Assembly: GCA_934202215.1 (NCBI GenBank)
Contig: CAKPXR010000021.1
Span: 1-24,444 of the forward strand
Length of the DNA stretch: 24,444 nucleotides
Reading direction: 5' to 3'
From: an uncultured Veillonella sp.
GTDB lineage: Bacteria > Bacillota > Negativicutes > Veillonellales > Veillonellaceae
A program made the translations under genes and the position numbers. The notes under the pieces are model-generated. The model made no database searches and had not been told where the DNA came from. It worked only from the letters and a program-made list of their open reading frames with translations. This document shows, piece after piece, positions 2,072 to 19,815 of the stretch (the first letter of the stretch is position 1; each line of letters opens with the position of its first letter).

Positions 2072-2129
2072 AAAAATGAATTATAGATGAATTGTCATCT
2101 AAAAACGTAATAAAGAGAGAATGAGAGAA

Positions 2130-3263: not shown

Positions 3264-3273
3264 TGGTCATTTA
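3243..3273. repeat. 16-base tandem duplication across a stop codon
   Basis: CCTAATGGTCATTTAA (3243-3258) is immediately repeated as CCTAATGGTCATTTAT (3259-3274). The stop codon of the first barrel gene lies in the second copy, so the duplication has changed the last residues of the protein. Confidence 0.7.
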
Positions 3274-3319
3274 TAAAATTAATGATTATGTATAAGCATC
3301 AAAGGGGAGAAGTTTAGTA

Positions 3320-4540
3320 ATGAAACGTAAGTTAGTATTAACATCTATGATGCTAGGTGTCATAGTGTGCAACATGAATGCCGTAGTGGGAGCGGCCGAT
3401 GGAGTACAACAGGTGAGCGATACAGCAAAACATGATGCTGTGCAATCTAGTTGGATGGACCGCACGGATATTGTAGTCGGCATTGGTATGAAAAATTCTG
3501 AAGAGTCGAGTAGCCATCAATACCATAATTTTATGCCTTGGCAAAATCATCCTATGGTGGGGACTGCTGATAAATCTAAATCTACAGAACTTAACAAGTT
3601 ATACATTGAGACATTACAACCTGTAACTCATTACGATGAAAATGCTAAAAGTGTTGTCTTTGTACAAGGGCGTATAGGTCGTAGTGGTGAAAAAATATCC
3701 TATAATAAATTAAATAACTATTGGGTCCCAGATAGACCTGCAGGAACGTTTACAGTACACAACAGACAAGCCGATAAGGAAGAGTCATTAGGTGTGAATG
3801 CGAATATTGGTATTGGCTATCGTCGCCTTAGTAAAGGTGAACATGCTTATGTTGGTGTTAATGCATTCTATGACCACGTATTTAAAGGTGGTTATAAGCG
3901 CGTTAGTGGCGGTGTAGAATATGTGGCAGGCCTTAATGAATTTCATGCTAATGTATACCGAAATGTGGGGCCTGATGGTAGAAAATATATAGGGCTCCCT
4001 GGTCGAACTAGTGAATGGTATGATCCTACAGGGTTGTATCCATATGGTAGAGATAGTGATACTGGTCTTTATAATTATGCTAAAGTTGATTACGAAAATC
4101 ATTGGATGTTATCAGAAAAGGTTGCTGCCAGTGGATTTGATGTAGGATACTCACGAACCTTTAAACATGCTCGCTGGGCCCGTGCCTATGCGGACTATTA
4201 TAACTGGCGTGGTAGATCTGCTATGAGAGTAGGCTATGAAACATTAAATAAACGAGATGCCATAAAAGGTTTTAAAGTGGGTGCAGAATTCCATATCACA
4301 CCGCATCTTACACTTGATGCGGGTTACAAAACCGCATCTCATCATTTGAGTGGCCCTTATGCAACCTTGAAATATACAATCGGCACATCTAAGTTTGCTT
4401 GGCATGGTGGTAAACATAGTGAAAGTGCGATTACAACGGCTCGGGCTAAGATGCTTGATAAGGTACATCGCAGTGAAATGGTTGTACAAGAAATTATGGA
4501 AGAAAATTATGACCATGGTGTTACCGATGTAGGTTTATAA
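3320..4540 (+). CDS. Inverse autotransporter beta-barrel protein without passenger (copy 2)
   Basis: A 406-residue paralogue of the preceding gene. The signal peptide begins MKRKLVLTSMMLG, with likely cleavage after VVGA. The same ordered motifs occur: SSWMDRTDIVVG, ETLQPVTHYDENAKSVVFVQ, NIGIGYRRLSKGEHAYVGVN, RVSGGVEY, HANVYRNVG and TSKFAWHGGKHS, then the linker-like ARAKMLDKVHRSEMVV and an acidic 20-residue tail. It differs from copy 1 by insertions in two regions that are probably surface loops (about residues 55-85 and 220-255). AGGGGAG 8-12 bases upstream of ATG supports the start. Length matches barrel plus linker only; invasin-type Ig repeats and lectin domains are absent. A convergent hairpin terminator follows. 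The pair probably arose by tandem duplication followed by loop diversification. Confidence 0.85.
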   Translation: MKRKLVLTSMMLGVIVCNMNAVVGAADGVQQVSDTAKHDAVQSSWMDRTDIVVGIGMKNSEESSSHQYHNFMPWQNHPMVGTADKSKSTELNKLYIETLQPVTHYDENAKSVVFVQGRIGRSGEKISYNKLNNYWVPDRPAGTFTVHNRQADKEESLGVNANIGIGYRRLSKGEHAYVGVNAFYDHVFKGGYKRVSGGVEYVAGLNEFHANVYRNVGPDGRKYIGLPGRTSEWYDPTGLYPYGRDSDTGLYNYAKVDYENHWMLSEKVAASGFDVGYSRTFKHARWARAYADYYNWRGRSAMRVGYETLNKRDAIKGFKVGAEFHITPHLTLDAGYKTASHHLSGPYATLKYTIGTSKFAWHGGKHSESAITTARAKMLDKVHRSEMVVQEIMEENYDHGVTDVGL

Positions 4541-7022: not shown

Positions 7023-7056
7023 AGGCCCTCCTTTCGTTTTTATACAATACACTATT

Positions 7057-7085
7057 ATTATATACCGAATACACAGCTCGTGAAA
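7057..7085 (-). promoter_or_regulatory. Possible promoter of the Sel1-repeat gene
   Basis: On the minus strand a perfect TATAAT (7057-7062) lies 17 bases from a poor -35 (TTTCAC, 7080-7085). The sequence around the -10, ATTCGGTATATAATAAT, also occurs on the plus strand at 7565-7581, at the head of the third repeat unit. Confidence 0.4.
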
Positions 7086-7094
7086 GGTAGAAGC

Positions 7095-7170
7095 GGTGAT
7101 GGTGCCTCTGAAAGCCGACACGCTACTGCGCTTCGCGGAGCCCGAAGTCGTTTTCAGAGGCACCATCACC
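7095..7170. repeat. Hairpin element with conserved core (type II)
   Basis: A perfect 19-bp stem pairs GGTGATGGTGCCTCTGAAA (7095-7113) with 7152-7170. The enclosed core (GCCGACACGCTACTGCGC ... GCGGAGCCCGAAGTCG) matches the core of the terminator at 7705-7786 in inverted orientation, with two differences over 50 bases (7109-7158), while the outer stem differs. No T-tract follows on either side, so it is not an obvious terminator. Confidence 0.75.
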
Positions 7171-7200
7171 TTCAACTATCTCGTTCTAGTGTTGATTCGA

Positions 7201-7337
7201 AATATAATAGTAGTGAAATTGATAAAATCCGTTATCGCCTACCCGACCGTTTGACAGGAGAGTGTGATGGCGTGTCCTGAGAACCTTCACCGGCCAGGTC
7301 TGACTACGCTCTTCGGGCTCCGCAGGGCCAAAGTCGG
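7201..7337 (+). repeat. 137-base direct repeat, unit A
   Basis: Starts AATATAATAGTAGTGAAATT and ends CAAAGTCGG. It matches unit B (7386-7522) with six substitutions and no gaps, offset by 185 bases. It begins with a TATAAT and contains the GC-rich core CTTCGGGCTCCGC also found in the type II hairpins. I found no convincing ORF in it. The outer closing stem seen in unit B is degraded here on its right side. Confidence 0.85.
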
Positions 7338-7385
7338 ATTTTTGAGTCCATCGGTTCTATCTCTCAATCCATAGCCGACACGCGG

Positions 7386-7533
7386 AATATAATAGTAGTG
7401 AAATTGATAAAATCCGTTATTGCCAACCCAACCGTTTGACAGGAGAGTGTGATGGCGTGTCCTGAGAACCTTCACCGGCCGGGTCTGACTACGCCCTTCG
7501 GGCTCCGCAGGGCTAAAGTCGGTTTCAGGACAC
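7386..7533 (+). repeat. 137-base direct repeat, unit B, with intact hairpin
   Basis: The second copy (7386-7522) is about 96% identical to unit A. In this copy a 9-bp stem, GTGTCCTGA (7457-7465) with TCAGGACAC (7525-7533), extended by AACC/GGTT, encloses the core CACCGG ... GCTAAAGTCGG. The design, a variable outer stem around a conserved core, is the same as in the elements at 794, 7095 and 7705. Confidence 0.85.
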
Positions 7534-7570
7534 TTCGTCGCCCTGCGCATTACACTTGGTGTACATTCGG

Positions 7571-7626
7571 TATATAATAATGTGAAATTGAAAAAATGTT
7601 ATCGCCAACCCAACCGGGGGACAGGA
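7571..7626 (+). repeat. Degenerate third repeat unit
   Basis: TATATAATAATGTGAAATTG ... TTATCGCCAACCCAACC ... GACAGGAG follows the first 56 or so bases of units A and B with substitutions and a short deletion, then diverges. It is preceded by TTACAC 17 bases before TATAAT, giving a plausible promoter. Two small hairpins follow: GGGCC/GGCCC (7627-7639) and CTGCG/CGCAG (7640-7652). No gene is visible from 7171 to 7810. Confidence 0.6.
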
Positions 7627-7704
7627 GGGCCTACGGCCCCTGCGTAGCGCAGTACCCCTCTAGGTATAATAAAAAATAATTTCTACTTACGATGATAGGA
7701 TAGT

Positions 7705-7786
7705 AAAAAAAGAACCGGTTCTGAAAACGACTTCGGGCTCCGCTTAGCGCAGTAGCGTGTCGGCTTTCAGGACCGGTTCTTTTTTT
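7705..7786 (-). terminator. Terminator of the amino-acid-binding protein gene, type II core
   Basis: A 22-bp stem (7705-7726 with 7765-7786, one mismatch) consists of A7-GAACCGGT type arms and ends in a T-run in both orientations. It lies 25 bases after the stop of the minus-strand gene at 7811, so it is its terminator. The 38-base loop carries the conserved core shared with 7095-7170. Confidence 0.85.
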
Positions 7787-7810
7787 TAAACGTATAATAC
7801 GTAATAGAAA

Positions 7811-8593
7811 TTATTTTTGGTTAGCGTCACCAAACCATTTATCATAGATTTTTTGGTATGTGCCGTCTTCTTTAAGTTCTTTAAGTGCTTTGTTGATAGC
7901 TTGTTGCAATTCTGTGTTGCCTTTTTTCACACCAAGAACAGTGCCTGGGGATTGAGTAGGTTCACCTACGAGTTTAAGGTCTTTGTCAGCACCTTGTTTG
8001 AGGTAGTACATAGCTACTGCATTATCAATGATGGCACCATCGATTGTACCAGCTTTCAATTCCATAAAGATATTGGAGTTGGAGTCCATTTCTTTTACTG
8101 TTGTGTTAGGAATGGCTTTTGCCATATCTGCAGGAACAGTGCCGATTTGAACGCCTACAGTTTTGCCTGCCAACTCGTCCATGTTGTGGATTGTAGTGTT
8201 GTCTTTACGAACCACTGTGATAAAACCACCTTTATCAAAGTATACATCGGAGAAGTCCAATGCTTTTTCACGTTCTGGTGTTGCGTTGATGCCTGCTGCA
8301 ATCATGTCGATATCGCCAGATTGAACTGCAGGAATTAAAGCATCAAAGCCCATGGATTTGAATTCCATTTTCATGCCTAATTTTTTAGCGATAGCTTCGG
8401 ACAAATCAACGTCAAAACCAACGTATTTATCGCCTTCAGTGAATTCGAATGGTGGGAATGTAGTTTCAGAACCTACACGTAGCACACCTTCGTCGTGTGT
8501 CATTTTGCTTTTTTCACTGCCACAACCAGCCAATAAACCCATAGCAGCAACGGCTACGAGTGCGATAGCTGTCAATTTTTTGAATTTAAACAT
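7811..8593 (-). CDS. Amino-acid ABC transporter substrate-binding lipoprotein
   Basis: A 260-residue family-3 solute-binding protein (glutamine/polar amino acid type) that captures its ligand at the cell envelope. The start at 8593 follows AGGAGGA. A lipoprotein signal ends in LLAGC, with Cys24 as the lipidated residue. The mature part begins with the classic GVLRVGSETTFPPFEF, followed by GFDVDLSEAIAKKLG, FDALIPAVQSGDIDMIAAG and TPEREKALDFSDVYF, and ends KIYDKWFGD. Length is typical. No permease or ATPase gene is adjacent, so it is an orphan component that must use membrane parts encoded elsewhere. It is transcribed divergently from the M20 hydrolase, with overlapping promoters. The exact ligand cannot be read from sequence. 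Confidence 0.92.
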   Translation of the reverse strand: MFKFKKLTAIALVAVAAMGLLAGCGSEKSKMTHDEGVLRVGSETTFPPFEFTEGDKYVGFDVDLSEAIAKKLGMKMEFKSMGFDALIPAVQSGDIDMIAAGINATPEREKALDFSDVYFDKGGFITVVRKDNTTIHNMDELAGKTVGVQIGTVPADMAKAIPNTTVKEMDSNSNIFMELKAGTIDGAIIDNAVAMYYLKQGADKDLKLVGEPTQSPGTVLGVKKGNTELQQAINKALKELKEDGTYQKIYDKWFGDANQK

Positions 8594-8636
8594 AGTATCC
8601 TCCTCAAACACGATACAAACATAATATTCTGTTTCT

Positions 8637-8665
8637 ATTGTACGGAATTTTGAACCAATAGACAA
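8637..8665 (-). promoter_or_regulatory. Promoter of the amino-acid-binding protein gene
   Basis: On the minus strand: TTGTCT (8660-8665), a 17-base spacer and TACAAT (8637-8642). The leader would be about 40 bases, ending in GAGGAGGA. Confidence 0.7.
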
Positions 8666-8679
8666 TAACATTGTATAAT
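8650..8679 (+). promoter_or_regulatory. Promoter of the M20 hydrolase gene, overlapping the divergent one
   Basis: TTGAAC (8650-8655), an 18-base spacer and a perfect TATAAT (8674-8679). Its -35 box lies inside the spacer of the minus-strand promoter, so the two polymerases would compete for the same DNA. Confidence 0.65.
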
Positions 8680-8764
8680 TAAAGATACGTGAACAAATTA
8701 TGTGGCCAATGGGTATCTTGTATTCATTGAGCTTAGTTATAAATATAAATCCTTGGGAGGATAT

Positions 8765-9946
8765 ATGTCTCTTATTGAACAATTTTCAATTGCTTGTGAA
8801 AGCTTCGCCCAAGAGGCTTTCACCATTAACTATACATTGGCGAAGCATCCAGAGATTTCTAGCCAAGAATTTGAATCTGTAAAAACTATCGGTGCTGTTC
8901 TTGAAAAGCATGGTATGGATGTAGATTATGAGTTTTGTAATTTACCTACAGCTTTTAAGGCGTCTGCTGTGAAAGTAGATAATCCTAAAGGCCGTTTAGC
9001 CATATTATGTGAATACGATGCGCTCCCAGATGTGGGCCATGCGTGCGGACACTCTGCTAGCGGATCTATGAGCGTATTAGCAGCGCTTGCATTACATAAG
9101 ATGCAACAAGATGGTATTGCTTTTAATATGGATATCGATATTATCGGTACTCCTGATGAGGAAGCAACAGGTTGCAAGGTAGATATGTGTAATGCAGGAG
9201 TGTTTAAAGACTATGATTTTGCTATCATGGTTCACCTTGATGGGGAAGAAACACGACCTAATTCACAATTCCTTGCATTAGACTGTTTCCGTGCTCGTTA
9301 TCATGGCAAACCAGCTCATGCAGCAGGTGAGCCTTGGAACGGCATTAATGCGGTAAACGGTGTACAACTTGCTATTCACGCCATGGATATGATGCGCCAA
9401 CAAGTGCGTCCTGAAACACGTATCGGTACGTGGATCATTAACGGCGGTACTGCGTCTAACGTCATTCCTGCTTATGGCGAACTAGAAGTGACCGTACGTC
9501 ATACAGAACGGGAGTATTTGAACGGATTATCCGAGCAAATCAAAAAGATTTTTGAAGGGGCGGCCCTTTGTACTGGTACAACTGTAGACGTTGAATTTTA
9601 CGGTAACCCTTACGATGATATGAACCAAAACCATCGCGGCACACACCTCATCGAAGCAGTGATGACCGACATGGGCCTCGATTTTAAACCAGGTCCAGCC
9701 GATATTAGTGGTAGTTCAGATATTGGTAATGTGAGTTATCAATGTGCCGCGTTCCATCCTAAATTGCGCTTGGCCGGCCCAGATAAAGTGTGCCATGCTA
9801 AAGAATTTGCGGATGCCATGCTTGAACCAACCATTGAACAAACCATTGTGGACGGTGCCAATATTATTGGTCGTACAGTATTGAACTTGGTTGAAAATCC
9901 AGCAATTTTACAAGAGATTGTAGCCGAATTTAATGCAACTAAATAA
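8765..9946 (+). CDS. M20-family amidohydrolase (AbgB/ACY1L2-like)
   Basis: A 393-residue cytoplasmic zinc-type amidohydrolase that would split an N-acyl or peptide amide bond of an amino acid. ATG 8765 is chosen because GGGAGGATAT lies just upstream; in-frame codons further upstream include the promoter region. Metal-site motifs are visible: GHACGHSASG (H92, C94, H96), TPDEEATG (E132/E133) and the dimerisation-lid segment GKPAHAAGEPWNGINA. The GHxCGH form and MVHLDG point to the AbgB/PM20D2 branch rather than the HipO branch. Divergent arrangement with an amino-acid-binding lipoprotein suggests a shared task in scavenging amino acids or small peptides, which is inference. The substrate is unknown. 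Confidence 0.88.
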   Translation: MSLIEQFSIACESFAQEAFTINYTLAKHPEISSQEFESVKTIGAVLEKHGMDVDYEFCNLPTAFKASAVKVDNPKGRLAILCEYDALPDVGHACGHSASGSMSVLAALALHKMQQDGIAFNMDIDIIGTPDEEATGCKVDMCNAGVFKDYDFAIMVHLDGEETRPNSQFLALDCFRARYHGKPAHAAGEPWNGINAVNGVQLAIHAMDMMRQQVRPETRIGTWIINGGTASNVIPAYGELEVTVRHTEREYLNGLSEQIKKIFEGAALCTGTTVDVEFYGNPYDDMNQNHRGTHLIEAVMTDMGLDFKPGPADISGSSDIGNVSYQCAAFHPKLRLAGPDKVCHAKEFADAMLEPTIEQTIVDGANIIGRTVLNLVENPAILQEIVAEFNATK

Positions 9947-10145
9947 AGTGCTTTCTATATCTATCGGGGGAGCTGTAATATCGTAGATAGAATTCATTGT
10001 CTCTTTCAGCGATGACGGGGATGTATTTAAACTCAAGAAATTCAAATAAACTAGCTATGGTGATGTCATTTGGTACAGTAAATTCTTTGCAATGATGACT
10101 CATATTTTTTATTCAATTTATCGATGTTGTATTACAGGAGGTTTC

Positions 10146-11096
10146 ATGTCTTCAACTGAAACTTTAGAAATTAAAAATTATATAGGCCTTACTGGGGATT
10201 TACCGATTCGATTTATTGCATCCGATGTGGATGGTACATTGGTCAATGATGCTAAGTCCGTAGATCCAGAGGTGGTCAATGCGGTTCGTGCTGCTCGTGA
10301 AAGCGGTATTCGCGTGGCTATTGCATCGGGGCGTGCCTGGCATGAGATGGATGATATTATCGAGGCCATGCCGTGCCTTCGGTACTTTATATGTACTAAT
10401 GGTGCCTACGTCATGGATAAAGAAGAGCAAAAAGAACTGTTACATATTACTATTGATAAAGCTCGTGCCTTAGGGTTAGTACGAAAATTGATGAATTATG
10501 GCGTATTTGTAGAGGCCTATGTGAAAGCTGAGATTTTCGGACAATATCCTGTCGTTGGTAATGAAACTGCCCAAGCAGAATACTTTTTTAGACCGAATAT
10601 TAGACCTTTCATCTTGAAAACGCGTACAATGGTACCGGATTTACTTGCTCACTTAGAATCGTTACCAGAAGGACCTGAAAAAATTCAGATCTTTTATGGT
10701 GATGAGGCTCTATCTGAACGTATTTTGACCGATTTACGAGATGAATTTCAAGGGGCTGCCATGGATGGTAAAGGTCGCGAACGCTTTTACGATGTTCTTG
10801 AATCGAGTGAAGGCAACTTAGAATTTGTGTTACCTCATACGACAAAAGGAACCGCAGTAGAGGCATTGGCTAATCATTGGGGATATACAGCGGATGAAGT
10901 CATGACGATTGGTGATAGTGAAAATGACCTATCCATGATCCGCTTTGCTGGTGCTAGCGTAGCTATGGGGAATGCACGAGATAATGTGAAAGCTGCGGCA
11001 CGATATGAAACAATGGATAACAATCATTGTGGTGTAGCTCAAGCACTCTATTCGGCCATTGCATATAATCGTGAATTGGAAGGTAATAAACGATAA
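10146..11096 (+). CDS. Cof-type HAD-IIB family phosphatase
   Basis: A 316-residue cytoplasmic phosphatase of the haloacid dehalogenase superfamily. The nucleophile motif is DVDGTL (D27, acid/base D29) and the C-terminal Mg-binding motif is GDSENDLSM (D257, D261). A large C2 cap domain lies between them, with the thresholds ASGRAW and CTNGA typical of Cof/YbiV-like enzymes that dephosphorylate sugar phosphates or cofactors. ATG 10146 follows CAGGAGG; the N-terminal 20-residue extension before the motif is slightly long for the family. It appears monocistronic; the substrate cannot be read from sequence. The 199-base gap upstream shows no obvious gene. Confidence 0.88.
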   Translation: MSSTETLEIKNYIGLTGDLPIRFIASDVDGTLVNDAKSVDPEVVNAVRAARESGIRVAIASGRAWHEMDDIIEAMPCLRYFICTNGAYVMDKEEQKELLHITIDKARALGLVRKLMNYGVFVEAYVKAEIFGQYPVVGNETAQAEYFFRPNIRPFILKTRTMVPDLLAHLESLPEGPEKIQIFYGDEALSERILTDLRDEFQGAAMDGKGRERFYDVLESSEGNLEFVLPHTTKGTAVEALANHWGYTADEVMTIGDSENDLSMIRFAGASVAMGNARDNVKAAARYETMDNNHCGVAQALYSAIAYNRELEGNKR

Positions 11097-11134
11097 CGCT
11101 GATTACATAAAATAATACGGATCACATAAAACAT

Positions 11135-11174
11135 AATGCCGTTACAGAATCAATAATGTCGTTATAGAATCAAT
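11135..11174. repeat. 20-base tandem repeat
   Basis: AATGCCGTTACAGAATCAAT (11135-11154) is followed directly by AATGTCGTTATAGAATCAAT (11155-11174), two differences. It lies in the AT-rich gap ahead of the ferredoxin gene; the function is unknown. Confidence 0.7.
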
Positions 11175-11210
11175 ACTTATATCTTATGCTCCATAGAGAG
11201 GTGATGTCAT

Positions 11211-11402
11211 ATGGGTTATATAAAATTTGATATAGACGATACCTGTGTTAAATGCGGGGCTTGTGCGGAAGACTGCCCTGTACAATGCATCACCGAAGGC
11301 GTTACAAAATTTATTGTTGGCAACGGCTGTATCAGTTGTGGTGATTGCTACTCCATCTGTCCTGTTGGGGCCGTACAGATGCATAAGAAATCCGAACGTT
11401 AA
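11211..11402 (+). CDS. 2[4Fe-4S] ferredoxin
   Basis: A 63-residue bacterial-type ferredoxin, a soluble low-potential electron carrier of anaerobes. It has two CxxCxxCxxxCP clusters: C12, C15, C18, C22 and C40, C43, C46, C50. Each set of four binds one [4Fe-4S] cluster together with the usual swap between halves. An extra cysteine at 26 is present. The RBS is GAGAGGTGATG. It ends with a short basic tail (HKKSER). It has no enzyme partner next door and sits between a phosphatase and guaA, so its redox partner is unknown. Confidence 0.93.
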   Translation: MGYIKFDIDDTCVKCGACAEDCPVQCITEGVTKFIVGNGCISCGDCYSICPVGAVQMHKKSER

Positions 11403-11420
11403 AAAGTAAACTATAACTTT

Positions 11421-11462
11421 CATACGGAATATATGGAGTCCGTATGGTTCCTATGGTATAAT
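11421..11462 (+). promoter_or_regulatory. guaA promoter region with overlapping dyad
   Basis: A perfect TATAAT (11457-11462) has a poor -35 (TGGAGT, 11434-11439). A perfect 8-base inverted repeat, CATACGGA (11421-11428) / TCCGTATG (11439-11446), spans the -35 region. It could be an operator, or a weak hairpin after the ferredoxin gene; there is no T-tract. Confidence 0.5.
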
Positions 11463-11576
11463 AGACTGTAATGAAAAATTAGCGTTTTACTTAGTAAGCG
11501 CACCCCCAGTACAGGAATGTATGGACATTATACATTGGTGAATATACTTTCATAAATAGATGCATACGGAGGAACT
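11463..11576 (+). promoter_or_regulatory. Structured leader of guaA
   Basis: A leader of about 105 bases contains two possible hairpins: GCG-TTAC/GTAA-CGC (about 11481-11501) and a composite helix CACC (11501-11504)/GGTG (11537-11540) closing AATGTAT/ATACATT (11516-11522 with 11530-11536). It does not match the purine riboswitch core I know. The RBS ACGGAGGAACT ends just before ATG. Confidence 0.4.
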
Positions 11577-13112
11577 ATGGAAAACAAGGAATTTGTTATT
11601 GTTGTCGATTTCGGCGGTCAATATAATCAGTTGATTGCACGCCGTGTACGTGAAAATCATGTATACTGCGAAGTATATCCATACAACAAAGCATTGGAAA
11701 AAATTAAGGAATTGAAACCGCAAGGTATCATCTTTACTGGTGGCCCTAACAGCGTGTACGAAGAAAATTCCCCTAAAATTGAAAAAGAAATCTTTGAACT
11801 TGGTATTCCAGTTCTTGGCATGTGCTATGGTATGCAATTTATGGCGCATACATTGGGCGGCGAAGTTAAATCTGCGGACAACCGTGAATTTGGTAAAACA
11901 CCTACTAAAGTGGACACCACATCTCCATTGTTCAAAGGCTTGGACGAAGACCAAGTTGTTTGGATGTCTCACGTTGACTATGTAGCAAAGGTACCAGAAG
12001 GTTTTGAAATCGTTGCACATACAAAAGACTGTCCTGTTGCATCCATGCAAAATACAGAACGTAAATTGTACGCTATGCAATACCATGCAGAAGTATTGCA
12101 CACTGAACATGGTAAAGAAATGCTTCACAACTTCTTGTATGAAGTATGTGGTTTTACAGGCACATGGACAATGGCAAACTATGCAAAAACGGCTATTGAA
12201 GACATTCGCAACACAGTAGGCGATGGTAAAGTATTATTGGCCTTATCTGGCGGTGTAGATAGCTCCGTTGCAGCAGCTCTTATTTCTAAAGCTGTTGGCG
12301 ACCAATTGACTTGTATCTTCGTTGACCATGGTTTAATGCGTAAAAACGAAGGCGACGAAGTTGAAGCAGCTTTCAAAGATTCCGGTATGCATTTCATTCG
12401 CGTCGATGCTGAAAAACGTTTCTTAGATAAATTGGCTGGTCTTGAAGACCCAGAAGCAAAACGTAAAGCTATCGGTGAAGAGTTCATCCGCGTATTTGAA
12501 GACGAAGGTCGTAAAATCGGCTCCGTTGACTTCTTGGCGCAAGGTACAATCTACCCTGATGTTATTGAGTCCGGTACTGGTGAAGCTGAGGTTATTAAAT
12601 CTCACCACAACGTAGGCGGCTTGCCTGCAGTGGTAGACTTCAAAGGTCTTATCGAACCATTGCGTAACCTCTTTAAAGATGAAGTGCGTGAACTTGGTTC
12701 TGAATTAGGTTTGGCTGACTACCTCGTATGGCGTCAACCATTCCCTGGTCCTGGTTTAGCTATTCGCGTAATGGGCGAAATCACGAAAGAGAAACTCGAC
12801 ATCTTGCGTGATGCGGACTACATCTTCCGTGACGAAATTGCAAAAGCTGGCCTTGATCGTAGTATCAACCAATACTTTGCCGTATTAACATCTACACGTA
12901 CCGTAGGCGTTATGGGTGACTTCCGTACATACGACTATACCTTGGCATTGCGTGGCGTAACAACAACAGACTTCATGACTGCTGACTGGGCACGCATTCC
13001 TTACGACGTATTGGACACAATCTCCCGTCGTATCGTAAACGAAGTACAACACATCAACCGTATCGTATATGATATTACATCTAAACCACCTGCAACTATT
13101 GAGTGGGAATAA
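11577..13112 (+). CDS. guaA: GMP synthase (glutamine-hydrolysing)
   Basis: A 511-residue cytoplasmic enzyme that converts XMP to GMP using ATP and glutamine, the last step of guanine nucleotide synthesis. The N-terminal class I glutamine amidotransferase domain has the nucleophile in GMCYGMQ (C83) and the triad partners in [11 protein letters not shown] (H170, E172). The PP-loop ATP pyrophosphatase motif LSGGVDSS is near residues 223-230. The C-terminal dimerisation domain ends in the highly conserved KPPATIEWE. Length is exactly typical. The start is set by CGGAGGAACT. It is a single-gene unit with its own promoter, a structured leader and a terminator. Codon use is GC-richer at third positions than in the island that follows. 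Confidence 0.97.
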
Positions 13113-13125
13113 AATATGAGTTTTG

Positions 13126-13154
13126 AAGGGCTACATAAATTGTGGCCCTTTTTT
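13126..13154 (+). terminator. guaA terminator
   Basis: A 10-bp stem, AAGGGCTACA (13126-13135) with TGTGGCCCTT (13141-13150, one G-T wobble) and loop TAAAT, is followed by T6. It begins 14 bases after the guaA stop and marks the left edge of the AT-rich island. Confidence 0.9.
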
Positions 13155-13232
13155 CTGGTCATATGAAATACGTAAATAAAACATTTAATTATTTTTTTTT
13201 GAATCGATTAGAACGTATGTTTGCAAATTAAT

Positions 13233-13260
13233 TTGATTAACGTATTATTTTTGGTATAAT
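13233..13260 (+). promoter_or_regulatory. Promoter of the restriction-modification/OLD operon
   Basis: TTGATT (13233-13238), a 16-base spacer and a perfect TATAAT (13255-13260), about 35 bases before the first methyltransferase start. No controller (C-protein) gene is present, so constitutive expression is the simplest reading. Confidence 0.7.
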
Positions 13261-13294
13261 AAAGTTAATGATTCTTAGTACAGGGGGTGGTTTG

Positions 13295-14128
13295 ATGAAT
13301 AATTTGTTATTGAGTCCATTATTGAAATGGGTAGGTGGTAAACGACAATTATTGTCTGATATTATTCCTATGATTGATAATAAATGTTCTACTTATGTGG
13401 AACCATTTATTGGTGGTGGTGCTGTATTGTTTAGTCTTCAACCTAAGAAGGCTATAATAAATGATTATAATCATGAGTTGATTAATGTATATAAGGTAGT
13501 TCGTGATAATCTTGATGAACTGTTGGAGTTACTTTATATTCATCAAGCAAATAATTCCTCTGAGTATTACTATGAAGTTAGAGCTTGGGATCGTGGCGAG
13601 TGTTTAAAGGAAATGTCTAATATTGAAAAAGCTGCACGTATCATTTACTTAAATAAAACTTGTTATAATGGCTTGTATAGGGTTAATTCAGCTGGGCAGT
13701 TTAACTCTCCATATGGTAGATATAAGAATCCTAATATCGTTAATGAAGCCGTATTAAAGGCCGTTTCAAATTATTTTAAAAATAATGATATAGATATCCG
13801 TAATGGAGATTATAGAGATACATTAATAAACTTGGATAAACGATCATTTGTGTACCTAGATCCACCTTATATGCCAATTTCATCTTCATCTTCATTTACA
13901 GGTTATACAGAAGGTGGGTTTGGATATAATCGTCAAGTAGAACTAAAAGAAGAGTGTGATAAATTAACTCGACAAGGCATTCGATTTGTACAGTCTAATT
14001 CTGACTGTGATGAAATTAGAGAATTATATAAAGAGTATAAAATTAAAACAGTAAAGGCAAAGAGAAGTATAAATAGTGTGGCTAAGAAGCGTGGAGAGAT
14101 AAATGAGGTTTTAATTTATAATGTCTAA
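13295..14128 (+). CDS. D12-class (Dam-like) DNA adenine-N6 methyltransferase
   Basis: A 277-residue alpha-class m6A methyltransferase that protects host DNA from the linked nuclease. The SAM-binding signature LKWVGGKRQLL (about residues 10-20) and EPFIGGGAVLF are followed by the catalytic DPPY at 189-192 in YLDPPYMPIS. The later segments FVQSNSD and VKAKRSINSVAKKRGEINEV resemble Dam/DpnM-type enzymes, some of which act on GATC, but the specificity here cannot be read. ATG 13295 is preferred because CAGGGGGTGG lies just upstream. It is the first gene of a four-gene operon, overlaps the next gene by 8 bases, and is markedly AT-rich compared with guaA, consistent with horizontal transfer. Confidence 0.92.
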   Translation: MNNLLLSPLLKWVGGKRQLLSDIIPMIDNKCSTYVEPFIGGGAVLFSLQPKKAIINDYNHELINVYKVVRDNLDELLELLYIHQANNSSEYYYEVRAWDRGECLKEMSNIEKAARIIYLNKTCYNGLYRVNSAGQFNSPYGRYKNPNIVNEAVLKAVSNYFKNNDIDIRNGDYRDTLINLDKRSFVYLDPPYMPISSSSSFTGYTEGGFGYNRQVELKEECDKLTRQGIRFVQSNSDCDEIRELYKEYKIKTVKAKRSINSVAKKRGEINEVLIYNV

Positions 14129-15425
14129 TAAATTTATAACAGCTAATGAAGCATGGAGCATGCTCATAGAAAAATATGATATTGTAAATAGGGTCATTAA
14201 AGATGGTATATTTCATATTAAGGCTAGTGAAATAAAAGCTTTTAAGGAGCCTCGGTTAATGGCGAAGTGGGATTGTATAGCTGCTTTGCCGACAGTTTTA
14301 AAAAAAAATAATTTAAATATCCTACCAGATAGTAGAAGTTCCTATGTTCTGGGGGATTTTCTTTTATATCAGGAAATACCAGAGTTACAAGAAGAAGTTT
14401 TTAATATGGATTATGTTGAAATCCCTGATTATGAAACGATAGATATCAATAATATTTCTTCAGAGGCAGTCGCCATAAATGTTCTAGTTATTTCTGGTAT
14501 ATTGGATGATTTTCTTGGTGTTGATGGAACTGTACAGACTTTTAGTGGTCGAATGGGAACTGGTGAATTTGATTTTGTAGTTGACACAGTAAGAGGTAAT
14601 AAACAAAAAATTTTTGTTAAAAATGCTCAATGTGAAATAGATGGCGGATTTGAAAATGAGCATGAAGTCGTTATTATGGAAGCTAAAAATGTCTTAAATG
14701 AAGAATTTCATGTTAGACAACTATATTTTCCGTATAGATTGTGGTGCAAGAAGGTTACAAAGCCTATAAGATTGATCTTTTCGATATATTCCAATATGAT
14801 TTTTCGTTTATTTGAGTATAGGTTTGTTGAAATAAATGATTATTCATCTATAGAATTAATAAAAACAAAAAATTATTCACTTCAAGATACAACAATAGAT
14901 ATTGAAGATTTAATAGAAGTTAGAAATAATACTAGGATTTGTTATCAAGATAATCAATATGATGATTTGAAAGTGCCCTTTATTCAAGCAAACTCTTTTG
15001 AACGTGTTGTATCATTATTGGAAAATATGAAAGATAACCCTATGACAAAAGAACAAATTGCTGAATTGATGGTGTTTGATGAAAGACAGTCAGACTATTA
15101 TTATAATGCAGGCGCTTATTTAGGATTATTTGAAAAGAAACGTGAAGATAAGATCAGTAAGGTATTTTTAACGAGATTGGGCGACAATGTATTTTCGTTA
15201 AATTATAAGGAACGGCAATTAAAATTTGTTGAATTAATCTTAAAACATCAGATTTTTGCTGATTGTTTTGACATGGTTATAAATAGTGGAGGGGAATTAC
15301 CTGACATAGAAACGATAGAAAGCCTAATGCGTGAATATAATGTTTGCAATGAAGGACAGATAAATAGACGAGCTAGTTCAGTTCAAGGCTGGATCAAATG
15401 GATTTTTAATCTTAGAAATTTATAA
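14121..15425 (+). CDS. Probable type II restriction endonuclease (PD-(D/E)XK plus winged helix)
   Basis: A 434-residue protein between two methyltransferases. Residues 170-190 read QCEIDGG ... VVIMEAKN: D174 and E187-x-K189 with 12 residues between, a good PD-(D/E)XK nuclease active site flanked by beta-strand-like sequence. The N-terminal part contains KEPRLMAKWD and NILPDSRSSYVLGDF, which I associate with uncharacterised restriction-type proteins, though I cannot name the family securely. Residues about 300-355 (MTKEQIAELMVFDERQSDYYYNAGAY as two helices, then FLTRLGDNVFSL) look like a winged helix-turn-helix, probably for DNA recognition. Its start overlaps the methyltransferase stop by 8 bases, implying translational coupling so that methylation leads cleavage. 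An alternative is a non-cleaving regulatory subunit. Confidence 0.72.
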   Translation: MSNKFITANEAWSMLIEKYDIVNRVIKDGIFHIKASEIKAFKEPRLMAKWDCIAALPTVLKKNNLNILPDSRSSYVLGDFLLYQEIPELQEEVFNMDYVEIPDYETIDINNISSEAVAINVLVISGILDDFLGVDGTVQTFSGRMGTGEFDFVVDTVRGNKQKIFVKNAQCEIDGGFENEHEVVIMEAKNVLNEEFHVRQLYFPYRLWCKKVTKPIRLIFSIYSNMIFRLFEYRFVEINDYSSIELIKTKNYSLQDTTIDIEDLIEVRNNTRICYQDNQYDDLKVPFIQANSFERVVSLLENMKDNPMTKEQIAELMVFDERQSDYYYNAGAYLGLFEKKREDKISKVFLTRLGDNVFSLNYKERQLKFVELILKHQIFADCFDMVINSGGELPDIETIESLMREYNVCNEGQINRRASSVQGWIKWIFNLRNL

Positions 15426-15437
15426 AGGACAAAATTT

Positions 15438-16169
15438 ATGAAATGGGAGCCTGATAATTTTCAATTGGAATATAATTCCGTGTGGTCATTTCCGGAAAGA
15501 GGAAATTGGGCGACACATGACTCAAAATGGAGGGGGAATTGGTCTCCCTATATTCCTCGTAATATTTTGCTTAGATATTCTAATATGAATGAATTAGTAC
15601 TCGATCAGTTTGCTGGTGGTGGAACTACTCTTATAGAAGCGAAGCTATTAAATCGAAATATAATAGGGGTTGATATAAATACTATTGCACTTCAGCGATG
15701 TAAAGAAAAGATCAGCTTTAAGCATGAGGGAGCTAATGGGAAAATATATTTACGTAAAGGTGATGCAAGAAAATTAGACTTTATTTCTGATGAATGTATT
15801 GATTTAATATGCACACATCCACCATATGCTGATATTATTAAGTATAGTGAGAATATAAAAGGGGATTTGTCACTTTTAAATGTAGAAGACTTTATTAATG
15901 AGATGAAGTTAGTAGCTATTGAAAGTTATCGTGTATTAAAAAAAGACAAGTTTTGTGCTATTCTCATGGGAGATATTCGGCGGAAAGGTAATATAGTTCC
16001 AATAGCTTTTTATGTAATGAAAGTATTTCAGGACATTGGATTTACGTTGAAGGAATTGGTTATAAAAGAACAACATAATTGTAGAAGAACGGAATATTGG
16101 AAAACGAGTGGAGTGAATTATAATTTTTTGCTTATTGCTCATGAATATTTGTTTGTATTTAGAAAGTAA
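15438..16169 (+). CDS. Second DNA amino-methyltransferase with HPPY motif
   Basis: A 243-residue SAM-dependent DNA methyltransferase (m6A or m4C). Target-recognition-like sequence comes first (SFPERGNWATHDSKWRGNWS). The SAM motif DQFAGGGTTLIEA follows (F58-G62), with GVDIN as the acidic motif II. The catalytic motif is THPPYADIIKYS, with H127-PPY130, where most relatives have D, N or S. That places it near beta-class DNA modification methylases but leaves the target base open. ATG 15438 follows AAAGGA. It begins 12 bases after the nuclease gene. Two methyltransferases with one nuclease is typical when the site is asymmetric and each strand needs its own enzyme, as in type IIS systems, or as in DpnII. 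Confidence 0.85.
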   Translation: MKWEPDNFQLEYNSVWSFPERGNWATHDSKWRGNWSPYIPRNILLRYSNMNELVLDQFAGGGTTLIEAKLLNRNIIGVDINTIALQRCKEKISFKHEGANGKIYLRKGDARKLDFISDECIDLICTHPPYADIIKYSENIKGDLSLLNVEDFINEMKLVAIESYRVLKKDKFCAILMGDIRRKGNIVPIAFYVMKVFQDIGFTLKELVIKEQHNCRRTEYWKTSGVNYNFLLIAHEYLFVFRK

Positions 16170-16178
16170 AGGGGTTTT

Positions 16179-17984
16179 ATGATACGTATTGTAAAATGTA
16201 GTATATCAAGATATCGTTCTATTTTATCAATGACTTTAGATATTTCGCAAGAGTCAAATAGTATTGCAATATGTGGCCCGAATAATGTAGGTAAAACTAA
16301 TACATTGAGAGCAATTAATTTGTTTTTCTATCCTGAAGACTATGTTAGAGAGATAGATATGCCTAAAATTAAAAGTGCAACAGGAGGGCAGTCGACGCAC
16401 CCTAAAATTGAATTAACTTTTTGGGATGAAGACCGATCTAGATATTATGTTTTATGTAGAGATATGAAAGTTTATTCAGAAAATTCTTCAGAAACTAGTC
16501 TTACAGGTTTCTCCTATGAGCCTCATAATAAAAAGAATAAATTAGTGCTGTCATCAGAAGAAGTTTTAGAGTTATTTGGAAAAATGGAATTTGTTTATAT
16601 TGAATCAATTAATACATTTATTCCGGAGTTGATTAGAAAAATAACGGACGGTATGATTGATGTTGAGTATGATAAAAGTCGGTTGTCAAAGTCTAAAAGG
16701 AAATTGAAAGAGGCTTATGATACATATGTAGATGGATTATCCCAGATATTAGGAACCTTTGCAAATGATATTTCAGATACGTTTAGACATTTTAGAGAAA
16801 ATTGGAAAGTAGAGTTTGTTGTACCTAAAAATTCGGAAACATTTAAAGATTTGGTGTCTGAAGACGTGAAATTATCATTAAATGATAATGGAAGTATTGG
16901 TGTTTTAGATAAAGGTGCAGGGCTGCAGCGTTTAGCGACTATTCTTTTAAATTTTGAAATGTTATCTCGTCTTGATAGTAAGAAAAATATTTTTGTATGT
17001 ATTGATGAGCCAGATGCTTATTTACATGAAGGTTTACAAAGAAAACTAAAAAGACTTTTTGACGAAAAAAATAATTCTATGCAATTATTTTTTACAACCC
17101 ATTCAAAAATATTTATAAATGAATATAATATGCAAAACGTATTTTTATTAAATTCAAAGTATTATGAAAAATTTTCAACTAGGAAAAAGAAAAATATTAA
17201 TGTAATGGAAACGGAAATTGTCGACATTAATGAGCAAAATGGGTATGATCAAATATGCTCGCATTTAGGGATTGAGCCTGTAACTTATGAATTATTGCAA
17301 TGTAATAATATATTAGTTGAAGGTAATTGTGATAAAAAATATTTAACAGAATTAATTAAGTTTTTTGGATTTGATTGCCCTAATATAGAATCACTTAATG
17401 GTGCAGATAATGCCATAAAATATTTGGAGTTTTATAATTCGTATTACCATAATAATACATCCAAATATAAGCCCAAAATTAAAATAATTTTTGATAATGA
17501 TCCAAAGGGGCGAGAAATATATAATAAGATAAGAGCGAATAATTATCAAAATATAGAAGTGAAATCAATATTAATCAATAACCATATGAATACTGGAAAT
17601 ATAAATGTAGAACATAATAACACCAATAATGAGATTGAGGATTTTATGTATCCAGAGGTTATGGTTTTTTTGATTAATTTACTTTTACAAAGAAAGAATA
17701 TGGCTAAATTAAATAAAACCAAAATTTGTAAAAAGGTTCACACACGCGCATTTTCTGTAAAAGGGATCTTGGAATTATGTGAGTATGAGAAAAATTCTGT
17801 GAATCCAGATAAAGGTGCTGAAATATCGTTTATATCTTCAGGAAATCAAACTAATAGAATAAAAGAAGGCTTAGCGGGTATGTTTAATTTGGAAGCTAAC
17901 AAACCTTTGTTATCCTTACTAGCAGCGTGTAATGTTAAATATCCTTATGTTAAAGAGGCCCTTAATGAATTGTGTACCTTTTGA
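16179..17984 (+). CDS. OLD-like ATPase with TOPRIM nuclease domain
   Basis: A 601-residue protein. The N-terminal ABC/SMC-like ATPase has Walker A GPNNVGKT (33-40), a signature-like LDKGAGLQRL near 243-252, Walker B FVCIDEPD (D276, E277) and the switch FFTTHSK. A TOPRIM domain follows, with the acidic residue in LVEGNCDKKYL (E381) and the DxD pair in IIFDNDPKG (D439, D441). This order defines OLD-family nucleases, which include the phage P2 Old protein and Gabija GajA. There is no UvrD-like GajB partner and no retron here. Only 9 bases separate it from the methyltransferase gene, so it belongs to the same operon. I infer a backup or abortive defence effector. ATG 16179 follows AAAGGGG. Confidence 0.88.
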   Translation: MIRIVKCSISRYRSILSMTLDISQESNSIAICGPNNVGKTNTLRAINLFFYPEDYVREIDMPKIKSATGGQSTHPKIELTFWDEDRSRYYVLCRDMKVYSENSSETSLTGFSYEPHNKKNKLVLSSEEVLELFGKMEFVYIESINTFIPELIRKITDGMIDVEYDKSRLSKSKRKLKEAYDTYVDGLSQILGTFANDISDTFRHFRENWKVEFVVPKNSETFKDLVSEDVKLSLNDNGSIGVLDKGAGLQRLATILLNFEMLSRLDSKKNIFVCIDEPDAYLHEGLQRKLKRLFDEKNNSMQLFFTTHSKIFINEYNMQNVFLLNSKYYEKFSTRKKKNINVMETEIVDINEQNGYDQICSHLGIEPVTYELLQCNNILVEGNCDKKYLTELIKFFGFDCPNIESLNGADNAIKYLEFYNSYYHNNTSKYKPKIKIIFDNDPKGREIYNKIRANNYQNIEVKSILINNHMNTGNINVEHNNTNNEIEDFMYPEVMVFLINLLLQRKNMAKLNKTKICKKVHTRAFSVKGILELCEYEKNSVNPDKGAEISFISSGNQTNRIKEGLAGMFNLEANKPLLSLLAACNVKYPYVKEALNELCTF

Positions 17985-18294
17985 TAGAAGATATAATAAA
18001 TAAAGAAATTAATAAAGCGGGTTAGTACGAAATATTTTGATTGAAACTTTTTTGTTAGATTACGTTTAATTATAATTAGTTTTAAACAAAATAAGTAATC
18101 TTGTTTTCATATAATCAGAAATTTGTAGTTAACCATATAATTTTTGAAAATTATTATAAGTATTTCGCTACGATATAAGGAGATAGTGAACATATACTTT
18201 ACAGGTGATATGGTATATGTAATCGATGAGGCCTGAGATGAGTGATTTAGATTTTACGATTAGTTGCACTGTTATCTTCTTTAACTAGAAGATA
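17985..18294. other. AT-rich non-coding gap after the defence operon
   Basis: 310 bases with no convincing gene. No clear terminator follows the OLD-like gene: I see no strong stem with a T-run. The only structure noted is a 9-bp dyad at the right edge (18272-18295). I found no repeat shared with 13155-13230 that could mark insertion of the island. Confidence 0.6.
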
Positions 18295-18295
18295 A
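18272..18295 (+). promoter_or_regulatory. Hairpin covering the start of the 85-aa gene
   Basis: TTATCTTCT (18272-18280) pairs perfectly with AGAAGATAA (18287-18295), loop TTAACT. The right arm contains the only Shine-Dalgarno-like bases (AGAAG) and the first base of the ATG, so folding would hide the start site. No T-run follows. Confidence 0.45.
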
Positions 18296-18552
18296 TGAAC
18301 CCACCGAATTTAAGTAATGGAAAGTATAGATACCATATTGTTATAAAGGGCAGTGAGGAATATCTTGAGTTCAACTTTATTGATGGTGAAGATCTCATCT
18401 TTGATAATCTAATACGCGCCAATGCGTTGTCAGTAGATGAGGATGTAGATTATTCTAGTTTACAAGTTGGTACGGAGTTCCTTATTATAGAAGGTAGTTC
18501 AATTGTTGGAGAGGGGCTTGTAAAAAGGAATCTTCCAACATACACCGTATAA
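18295..18552 (+). CDS. Small acidic protein of unknown function
   Basis: An 85-residue protein I do not recognise. It is acidic and has alternating hydrophobic/polar stretches that suggest beta strands (YRYHIVIKGSEEYLEFNFID, VGTEFLIIEGSSIVGEG). No signal peptide, membrane segment or cysteine is seen. The start is uncertain: an in-frame TAG lies 9 bases upstream of ATG 18295 and the RBS is weak and inside a hairpin. The coding stretch is otherwise free of rare features and its amino-acid use looks protein-like. It lies between the defence operon and two GNAT genes; it could be a cargo gene of the island or ordinary host content. Confidence 0.55.
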   Translation: MNPPNLSNGKYRYHIVIKGSEEYLEFNFIDGEDLIFDNLIRANALSVDEDVDYSSLQVGTEFLIIEGSSIVGEGLVKRNLPTYTV

Positions 18553-18591
18553 CAAGAAATAGTTGTGGGGATAATATCCGTTGGAGTTTTT

Positions 18592-19059
18592 ATGATTAAC
18601 ATAGTTGATGGTAAACCGTATTTAGATCAGGTAAAAGAGTTAATTAAAGAGTACACTCATTGGCTCGGTCGCGATTTGTCTTTTCAGAATCTAGATCAGG
18701 AATTAGCCGATATTGCTGAGAAATATACAGCTTCGAATGGTGAGTTATTGGTGGCTATCGATGATAATGATGTGGTGCTCGGCATGGTGACGTATTATCA
18801 GCATAGCGATACTCGCTGAGAAATGAAACGTCTCTATGTGCGTCCCGAGGGGCGTGGGCATGCTCTAGGTGATTATCTGATTGAAAGTATCATGGACCAT
18901 GCTAAGGCCTCCGGTTATAAAGAAATGGTGCTAGATACAATTGAACCGTTGCAAGCCGCTTTACATTTATACAAGAAGCATGGTTTTGTTGAATGTGAGC
19001 CGTATTATTATAATCCTATGGCTGATGTAATCTATATGAGAAAGGAATTGACTGAGTAA
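18592..19059 (+). pseudogene. GNAT N-acetyltransferase interrupted by in-frame TGA
   Basis: A 155-codon reading frame typical in length for GNAT enzymes, which move an acetyl group from acetyl-CoA to an amine. The start at 18592 follows TTGGAG. Codon 76 is TGA (18817-18819), between YYQHSDTR and EMKRLYVRPEGRG. The latter is the acetyl-CoA-binding start of motif A, and relatives usually read CEMKRLYV, so the TGA sits exactly where a cysteine codon (TGT or TGC) is expected. The rest is intact, including LHLYKKHGFVE and a normal TAA. The simplest view is a recent nonsense mutation giving a pseudogene. A sequencing error, or UGA decoded as selenocysteine, is possible but less likely. One base separates it from the next GNAT gene, so the two probably form an operon. 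Confidence 0.8.
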
Positions 19060-19060
19060 T

Positions 19061-19543
19061 ATGATAGTTCGTAAAGCCACCGTGGCAGACTTAGATTTAG
19101 TAACACATATAGAATCCACTTGTTTTCCTCCAGCTGAAGCAGCCCCTCGTGAAGCGTTTAAAGAACGCCTTGCTCATTATGCAGATCATTTCCTTATCAT
19201 CTTTGATGGTGATACGCCTATCGGTTTTATCGATGGTTTTGTATCTGATGATGAAATTTTAACAGATGAAATGTTTGCTGATGCGTCCCTCCATAATCCC
19301 AATGGTGCTTGGCAGATGATATTTGGCCTAAATACAATGCCAGCGTATCGGAATCGCGGTGTAGGAGGTCGGTTGATTGAGGCTTTCATAGAACTTGCAA
19401 AAGAGGAGCATCGAAAGGGCGTTATTTTGACATGTAAGGAAGAAAAGCTTCATTATTATGCAAAATTTGGTTTTGTAAATGAAGGCGAATCGATTTCTAA
19501 TCATGGCGGGGCTAAGTGGTATCAGATGCGTATCACTTTTTAA
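19061..19543 (+). CDS. GNAT family N-acetyltransferase
   Basis: A 160-residue cytoplasmic acetyltransferase. N-terminal MIVRKATVADLDLVTHIEST is a typical GNAT opening. The acetyl-CoA pyrophosphate loop is in MPAYRNRGVGGRLIEAFIEL (the RxxGxG/A pattern), followed by LTCKEEKLHYYAKFGFVNEG. The segment ESTCFPPAEAAPREAFKERL resembles serotonin-acetyltransferase-like (AANAT-type) bacterial members, which suggests an arylalkylamine or small amine substrate, but this is inference. ATG 19061 is one base after the stop of the interrupted GNAT gene, and AAGGAATTG inside that gene acts as RBS, so translation is probably coupled. Confidence 0.88.
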   Translation: MIVRKATVADLDLVTHIESTCFPPAEAAPREAFKERLAHYADHFLIIFDGDTPIGFIDGFVSDDEILTDEMFADASLHNPNGAWQMIFGLNTMPAYRNRGVGGRLIEAFIELAKEEHRKGVILTCKEEKLHYYAKFGFVNEGESISNHGGAKWYQMRITF

Positions 19544-19600: not shown

Positions 19601-19626
19601 GTAAGAAAAATCACATATCATTGGAT

Positions 19627-19815
19627 TAGGTGTCGTTTAGACTTAATAGAGAATTTGGTATAAGCTAAAGCGGTCACGCCACTGTAACAGGGAGAATCTT
19701 TGCATAAGATTTTAATGGAATCTTGGTCACTGATGTATATTGGGAAGACGCAAAGAAACGATGAACTGGAGCCAGGAGAACTGCCTAATTAACAATTACC
19801 GATGGACCTGCGAGT
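19627..19815 (+). promoter_or_regulatory. Cobalamin riboswitch
   Basis: Conserved blocks of the B12 aptamer appear in order: AGGTGTCGTTTAGACTTAAT near the 5' side, AGAATTTGGTATAAGC, GGTCACGCCACTGTAA, GGTCACTG, TGGGAAGACG and the B12 box AGCCAGGAGAACTGCC (19770-19785). The aptamer lies between a consensus promoter and a set of BtuFCD-like genes. The cell would lower importer expression when adenosylcobalamin or a related corrinoid is plentiful. The 3' limit is approximate. Confidence 0.92.

Follow-up and report, generated by a model that had tools for sequence, protein, structure and literature searches.

Why does a gene for an OLD-family ATPase-Toprim protein stand last in a small restriction-modification (RM) operon, and is it a fixed part of that operon, a chance neighbour or something between the two? 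The question is raised by a 24,444-nucleotide stretch of DNA from an uncultured Veillonella sp. (contig CAKPXR010000021.1; this whole stretch is the window below), which carries four head-to-tail genes named here M1, R, M2 and OLD. Relatives of the OLD gene, the window's copy included, lie behind a type II system of the GATC class in five of six loci, and the endonucleases of these systems belong to four families (DUF6997, DpnI, DpnII twice and AlwI); the recurring partner of OLD is a class of restriction system and not the one enzyme found in the window. The positions of the four genes, the 8-base overlap of M1 with R and the gaps of 12 bases (R to M2) and 9 bases (M2 to OLD), all described in an earlier note on this DNA, are confirmed from the open reading frames (ORFs), and the genes are as follows:

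13268..14128 (likely start 13295), forward strand: M1, a DpnM/Dam-type D12 N6-adenine methyltransferase, predicted to be GATC-specific (Pfam, TIGR00571 and PDB matches)
14121..15425, forward strand: R, a restriction endonuclease of the DUF6996-DUF6997-DUF7226 family with a PD-(D/E)XK-like motif (Pfam, PADLOC REase_II, motif reading)
15438..16169, forward strand: M2, an N6_N4-type DNA methyltransferase, accessory (Pfam, PADLOC, recurrence beside GATC-class RM systems)
16179..17984, forward strand: OLD, an OLD-family ATPase-Toprim protein, the fourth gene (Pfam, PADLOC, structure model, motifs, profile comparison)

Genomic Context of the OLD Relatives

The six OLD loci comprise the window and five relatives of at least 50% identity, four of them from genomes and the fifth from a phage contig; three of the six come from one pattern scan for close relatives. 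Their gene orders, with the identity of each OLD protein to that of the window, are:

Window: M1, R (DUF6997), M2, OLD
L001 (72%): D12 gene cut by the contig end, RE_AlwI, PIN_12, OLD
L002 (65%): DpnI, M2, OLD, then a 468-amino-acid (aa) protein
L003 (56%): Dam, DpnA-like, DpnII, OLD
L017 (50-51%): Dam, Mrr, DpnII, 353-aa protein, M2, OLD
L016 (52%): OLD alone; the phage contig also has genes that look SSB-, DnaB- and terminase-like by sequence

The DpnI, DpnII, AlwI, PIN_12 and D12 assignments in these loci are confirmed independently by Pfam, and the Mrr protein of L017 shares 48% identity with a Pfam-named protein of L004. Where OLD is linked to RM genes (five loci), it shares their strand, is last in the row and begins 8 to 120 bases after the preceding gene. 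The most similar OLD proteins (window, L001 and L002) stand with different endonucleases, and OLD therefore does not track one enzyme. Searches of the order, family and genus returned only loci already in the set; a search of the phylum added one distant OLD, L045, which was kept outside the six. There (6836-15045) the distant OLD gene precedes type I hsdR, hsdM and a likely hsdS, the last named by appearance, so that the restriction coupling of OLD may extend beyond GATC systems. The L016 relative (8001-9806) lies alone behind the SSB-like gene and recalls the phage-borne P2 Old.

For a control, a PF20469 search of 109 genomes from the class of genome G001 gave 13 OLD-like Toprim places in 10 genomes, and all 13 surroundings (3.4 to 14 kb) were scanned with the same profiles as the case loci. 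Genes of the D12, M2, DpnI, DpnII, AlwI and R kinds, to which the comparison is confined (other kinds of RM gene lie outside it), were found at none of the 13 control loci against five of the six OLD loci (Fisher p 0.0005; 0.0016 without the window; 0.002 without the window and the 3.4-kb control stretch), the profiles having been built from genes of the case loci and of L004, L018, L038 and L040, so that matches in the cases are built in. Among the control matches, two fall in short frames (106 and 167 aa); 5 of the 13 control loci match the OLD profile at 1e-6, and most controls represent other OLD types.

Conservation of the Four-Gene Order

A fixed four-gene order had been proposed earlier for this operon, with the corollary that OLD and the restriction trio would be independent neighbours if OLD were not conserved beside it. 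Ten R loci were compared: the window, L012 to L015 (4 of 21 plasmid records, opened for this purpose) and L037 to L041 (chromosomal, the five loci from a search of 200 genomes). By profile scan a D12 methyltransferase gene adjoins R in nine of the ten, in divergent orientation in L013; in L041 R is truncated and lies beside a gene that resembles a transposase in appearance. The R family occurs as a two-gene M1-R system on both plasmids and chromosomes. M2 accompanies it in two loci, the window and L039, where the M2 frame is open and lacks a usual start, and OLD (profile scan) in the window only. The four plasmids that match OLD at all include none of the 20 plasmids listed as bearing R, and scans of viral contigs with the single OLD and R proteins as queries returned no relatives.

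OLD as a strictly fixed member of the trio is thus rejected, with one R locus in ten, the window itself, showing the proposed order. The proposed corollary holds in its first half, as OLD is not conserved with this trio, and fails in its second, as five of the six OLD loci follow a GATC-class RM system; a verdict of independent neighbours would mislead, because the partner that recurs is the class of system. Within the window's genus the protein clusters of OLD and of R both top out on contigs of 242,489 and 20,804 bases; these shared sizes suggest that the two genes lie on the same contigs and that the form with OLD and R together is stable within the genus.

M2 and the Slot behind the RM Genes

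M2 was found in 15 places (window, L002, L004, L005, L007, L008, L017-L020, L033-L036 and L039), and in 12 of them it adjoins a GATC-class endonuclease: DpnII in seven, the AlwI family in two, DUF6997 in two and DpnI in one. In L005 and L034 the contig ends within the RM system; a D12 gene lies between M2 and R in L039; the M2 remnant of L008 lies beside the DpnII operon of L003; and no GATC-class endonuclease is seen in L007, where M2 has a stop, or in L020, where M2 is incomplete. The stretches of L005, L007, L008 and L020 are short or truncated, and distant M2-like proteins, at about 33% identity in most of 155 plasmid records and as a 424-aa protein in L041, were kept apart from the count. 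As judged from these gene neighbourhoods, M2 is a second accessory of the same GATC-class RM systems.

It could be supposed that M2 and OLD form a two-gene modification-restriction pair, with M2 marking self and OLD cutting unmarked DNA; the two are directly adjacent in three of the six OLD loci (window, L002, L017). This arrangement is considered very improbable, as L001, L003 (where a remnant with stops is left) and L016 have no intact M2 beside OLD, and OLD stands beside an intact M2 in just 3 of the 15 M2 places. As a strict rule, obligatory partnership is rejected: OLD occurs without M2 in L001, L003 and L016, and M2 without OLD in L004, L018, L019 and L033-L036.

The place behind the RM genes is elsewhere filled by other genes: AIPR in L037, DUF1883-TIR in L035, GmrSD_N in L039 and AbiJ_NTD3 in L018. 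Pfam names an FBPase there in L036, and L038 has a CobA-type gene; L033 has a 162-aa protein, and no recognised defence gene was found behind the RM genes of L034 and L040. The gaps between the RM genes and the next gene are about 425 bases in L018 and about 545 bases in L019, and because of these distances the follower genes in both may be separate.

Several individual loci deserve separate mention. In L035 (7379-8137) the DUF1883-TIR gene lies directly behind a Dam-DpnII-M2 unit and is a candidate backup effector. In L019 (3356-6716), a viral contig, an AlwI-M2 unit is followed by an AAA ATPase and a subtilase-family protein, possibly a protease-based defence pair. L018 and L019, both on contigs with a viral classification, each carry an AlwI-family endonuclease and M2, to which L018 adds two D12 methylases.

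The variety of this slot bears on a second alternative, in which OLD and M2 are separate defence genes, gathered behind GATC-type operons at a recombination-prone cassette flank and without joint action. Such hitch-hiking would fit the several unrelated defence genes found behind these RM genes and the occurrence of M2 and OLD each without the other; DpnI, DpnII and DpnIII are described as alternative cassettes in Streptococcus (PMC12707154, in part). On the other side, the OLD link spans GATC-class systems with four endonuclease families at operon-like spacing, and it is missing at all 13 control loci; hitch-hiking without cooperation is considered unlikely.

M1, R and M2

M1 matches PF02086 (E 1.3e-73) and TIGR00571, and its best PDB match is M1.DpnII (2dpm, E 4.9e-83), followed by E. 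coli Dam. In the alignment with M1.DpnII and Dam, M1 retains both the LKW.GGK lysine and the N.L.R...P...Y set, which we take to be the GATC-reading residues in the Dam-DNA structures; M1 is predicted to be GATC-specific on this basis. M2 contains an N6_N4 methyltransferase domain (Pfam) with motif I VLDQFAGGGTT ahead of THPPY, and some of its relatives are named 'TRM11 family' by NCBI. The two methyltransferases recognised earlier are therefore a D12/Dam enzyme and an N6_N4 enzyme by Pfam.

R is a DUF6996-DUF6997-DUF7226 protein in Pfam and matches the PADLOC model REase_II (E 8.2e-96). It had been thought to be a novel-type nuclease, a proposal that is rejected as the family is already present in both resources. 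It is described as PD-(D/E)XK-like from its EID-x(n)-EAK motif, read by eye, and from the PADLOC name; a sequence search for solved relatives gave none at E up to 1, and a literature search under DUF6997 gave no paper. The M1 and R families, as assigned by Pfam and PADLOC, would make up the methyltransferase-endonuclease gene pair of a type II RM system, and recognition of a GATC-containing site by R is a prediction.

The OLD Protein

The fourth gene, as judged from its motifs and profiles, encodes an OLD-architecture ATPase-Toprim protein, for which metal-dependent DNA cleavage is a putative activity. Its N-terminal ABC-type ATPase domain (AAA_15, E 2.1e-23; AAA_21, E 7.7e-14) contains the Walker A motif GPNNVGKT (residues 33-40) and the Walker B motif CIDEPD, both invariant in 17 sequences. 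The C-terminal half carries Toprim-type residues, E381/D385, D439-N-D441, N483-N-E485 and K538, with the E and DxD that mark the fold; E381, D385, D439, D441, E485 and K538 are invariant across the same 17 OLD sequences down to 54% identity. In order and spacing these six residues resemble E400, E404, D455, D457, E508 and K562 of BpOLD, a match read by eye and not a tool result; in BpOLD they are reported as the metal ligands and lysine (PMC6755086, in part). Against PF20469 the Toprim half scores E 0.013, below the Pfam cut-off; against a profile of ten PF20469-positive control proteins the OLD protein reaches 99.4% probability (E 3.8e-21), in an alignment that spans Walker B into the Toprim core and places VEG on VEG and DxD on DxD.

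The structure model of OLD has a mean predicted local distance difference test (pLDDT) score of 80 and a predicted template-modelling (pTM) score of 0.58. Its first Foldseek hits are Thermus OLD (6p74, E 1.4e-17) and then Gabija GajA; in the viral library the hits are mostly ATPase-type proteins of low TM-score, some named ATP-dependent endonuclease. A model of the isolated Toprim domain is poor (pLDDT 54.8).

The main rival explanation is a PARIS-like guard: the ATPase half would respond not to DNA ends but to an anti-restriction protein made by a phage, such as a DNA mimic or restriction inhibitor, and the Toprim part would arrest the cell, possibly by cutting RNA. The best PADLOC match of the OLD ATPase part is PARIS AriA (E 7.9e-25), single-gene AriAB fusions are reported (PMC9122126, in part), and a restriction guard would be expected beside restriction genes, like PrrC in EcoprrI (PMC12707154, in part). 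The AriAB fusion model nevertheless scores 5.9e-12, worse than Old at 2.8e-20; the OLD protein has no Pfam match to DUF4435 (AriB) at E up to 1, its first solved Foldseek hits are OLD and GajA, and PARIS is stated in a section of PMC9122126 to need no resident type I RM or BREX system. The absence of PARIS and other chains from the structural alignments is uninformative, the rows being filled by SMC/Rad50-type ATPase heads. Such a guard is considered rather unlikely.

Comparison with Known Systems

The published OLD classes, in the parts of PMC10568477 and PMC12796447 that bear on them, are single genes, Gabija, retrons, PARIS and archaeal Cran1. OLD shares with class 1 (P2 Old; Thermus scotoductus OLD, 6p74) a single chain of about 600 aa with an ABC ATPase and a C-terminal Toprim domain and no helicase partner; class 1 genes are described as isolated and away from defence genes (PMC10568477, in part), whereas this clade follows RM genes at all loci but L016, the one that would fit that description. 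According to that 2023 review, P2 Old was the sole class 1 OLD protecting against a phage; YbjD has since been added (PMC13261556, in part).

Class 2, Gabija GajA-GajB, has the same architecture and Toprim residues in similar order and spacing, and differs in its UvrD/PcrA/Rep-like helicase: a Pfam scan of the window's main ORFs found no helicase, and no UvrD-like helicase was recognised among the immediate neighbours at the other OLD loci, whose ORF lists were read by eye and partly scanned with Pfam. The earlier description of a type II RM operon that ends in an OLD gene and has no helicase partner is thus borne out by the Pfam and PADLOC families and the ORF scan. The class 3 retron OLDs stand with a reverse transcriptase and a non-coding RNA; no reverse transcriptase was found among the scanned ORFs of the window, and no retron RNA reached the gathering score there. 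Class 4, PARIS AriA-AriB, consists of two genes; its AriA is what the ATPase part of OLD scores best against in PADLOC, and the window has one gene without a DUF4435 match. PMC12796447 lists, in the part consulted, the OLD clades U1-U11; U11 has become class 5, and the window's clade may belong to one of the other U clades.

Effectors embedded in modification-based defence offer a second comparison. The TOPRIM/OLD effectors of BREX are, like OLD here, embedded in such a system as a supposed backup (PMC12839542, in part), and differ in standing among BREX core genes where here there is a small GATC-class type II system with interchangeable enzymes. PrrC is likewise an effector within a restriction locus, EcoprrI, and is thought to answer restriction inhibition (PMC12707154, in part); it is an anticodon nuclease in a type I system, and OLD a Toprim protein in a type II system. 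The DpnI/DpnII cassettes share a DpnM-like M1, and OLD relatives lie behind DpnI- and DpnII-family genes, whereas the section of PMC12707154 on the classical cassettes names no OLD gene; guardian genes in RM loci are described in the same source. Of the 837 old genes counted in PMC6755086 (in part), 107 are placed in operons specific to a species, where the adjacent genes have many functions, defence among them.

Borders of the Operon and Neighbouring Genes

The four genes are flanked by guaA on one side and by a small ORF followed by GNAT-type ORFs on the other. Two features mark the upstream border:

13125..13151, forward strand: terminator-like hairpin with a T-run that closes guaA, the upstream operon border (pattern match)
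13233..13260, forward strand: promoter-like site TTGATT-N16-TATAAT, with TG ahead of the second hexamer (consensus match)

The consensus promoter noted earlier is present as a site, and the match is weak by itself because such sites are common in an AT-rich stretch, with 45 found in 12900-18600 against 35.2 (standard deviation 6.1) in shuffles; its place behind the guaA hairpin supports the promoter-like reading. The -10 box lies only 7 bases from the first M1 ATG, and a Shine-Dalgarno-like run, AGGGGGTGG, precedes the second ATG at 13295; from these two features the true start of M1 is probably ATG 13295, which would give a protein of 277 aa. The reported AT-richness relative to guaA is likewise confirmed, the GC content being 0.312 for M1, 0.300 for R, 0.321 for M2 and 0.284 for OLD compared with 0.428 for guaA. 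A flanking direct repeat that would mark an insertion was not found among the 20 repeat families listed, out of 31 in the window, nor did a tRNA search of the window give a hit.

Beyond OLD, two neighbouring short ORFs (18565-18816 and 18823-19056) resemble the fragments of a single acetyltransferase gene, as the second matches the C-terminal half of a GNAT enzyme; an intact-looking GNAT gene adjoins at 19061-19543. A cobalamin riboswitch at 19611-19802 (86.5 bits) precedes two periplasmic-binding proteins, FecCD and an ABC ATPase, a set predicted to form a B12-controlled transporter. Elsewhere in the window, two tandem genes with inverse autotransporter beta-domains occupy 2121-4540, and an ORF at 929-1630 with a weak, sub-cut-off HipA_C match is possibly a kinase-toxin-like remnant. 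GATC occurs 51 times in the whole window against 82 expected from base composition, a crude count that could reflect avoidance.

Proposed Function and Significance

The favoured reading, considered to have about an even chance of being correct, is a GATC-directed type II RM operon that carries in its 3' part an exchangeable accessory or backup module, with M2 and with OLD as a second-line effector. M1 would methylate GATC, and R would cut unmodified DNA at a GATC-containing site; OLD would stay idle under its ABC-ATPase while restriction and host end-processing work. If incoming DNA survives, either as its ends are blocked from RecBCD/AddAB or as R is inhibited, OLD would engage the linear or protected DNA, and its Toprim site may then cut it, in the manner suggested for Gabija GajA and P2 Old. 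Gabija, a well-studied relative, reportedly acts on linear DNA to whose ends phages deny RecBCD access (PMC12407980, in part); DNA cut by R and then protected at its ends by a phage would be of this type, which would make OLD a restriction fail-safe.

Several observations count against this proposal. OLD is dispensable to the R systems, being absent from nine of their ten loci; there are only six OLD loci, of which L016 has no RM genes, and in L002, from a metagenome assembly, a frame change interrupts the OLD gene. In the profile comparison the Toprim part alone reaches 19% probability (E 0.0012), the fold matches to OLD and GajA have low TM-scores of 0.31-0.35 with root-mean-square deviations of 17-20, and for the ATPase half the better superposition is with SMC/Rad50 heads. 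The AlwI family also holds GAGTC enzymes, and its members need not all read GATC. The linkage of OLD to RM genes can also reflect a shared landing place and not cooperation. Finally, the Toprim domain of YbjD, a class 1 OLD, is reported as dispensable for its anti-phage phenotypes (PMC13261556, in part), and cutting therefore need not be the mechanism of OLD.

As for the trigger, a direct reading of the methyl mark by OLD is disfavoured: a host with DpnI (L002) should lack GATC adenine methylation and the other hosts should have it, and because the clade sits with enzymes for methylated GATC and for unmethylated GATC alike, the mark is unlikely to be what sets OLD off. It is tentatively suggested, at a chance clearly below even, that the clade is a further OLD class by context, 'restriction-coupled', a mobile fail-safe swapped among GATC systems of both signs that would attack end-protected DNA.

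The four-gene arrangement is real and is suggestive of a functional link between OLD and the RM genes. Backup effectors are established as a principle; a tie between a single OLD clade and exchangeable GATC-class type II systems did not turn up in the literature searched, and no OLD gene behind DpnI-, DpnII- or AlwI-type operons is described in the texts covered, which came mostly from outside subscription journals and exclude supplementary tables. Should the coupling prove functional, even very small restriction systems would have their own means of countering phages that interfere with restriction or end-processing, and OLD nucleases would gain a defined partner.

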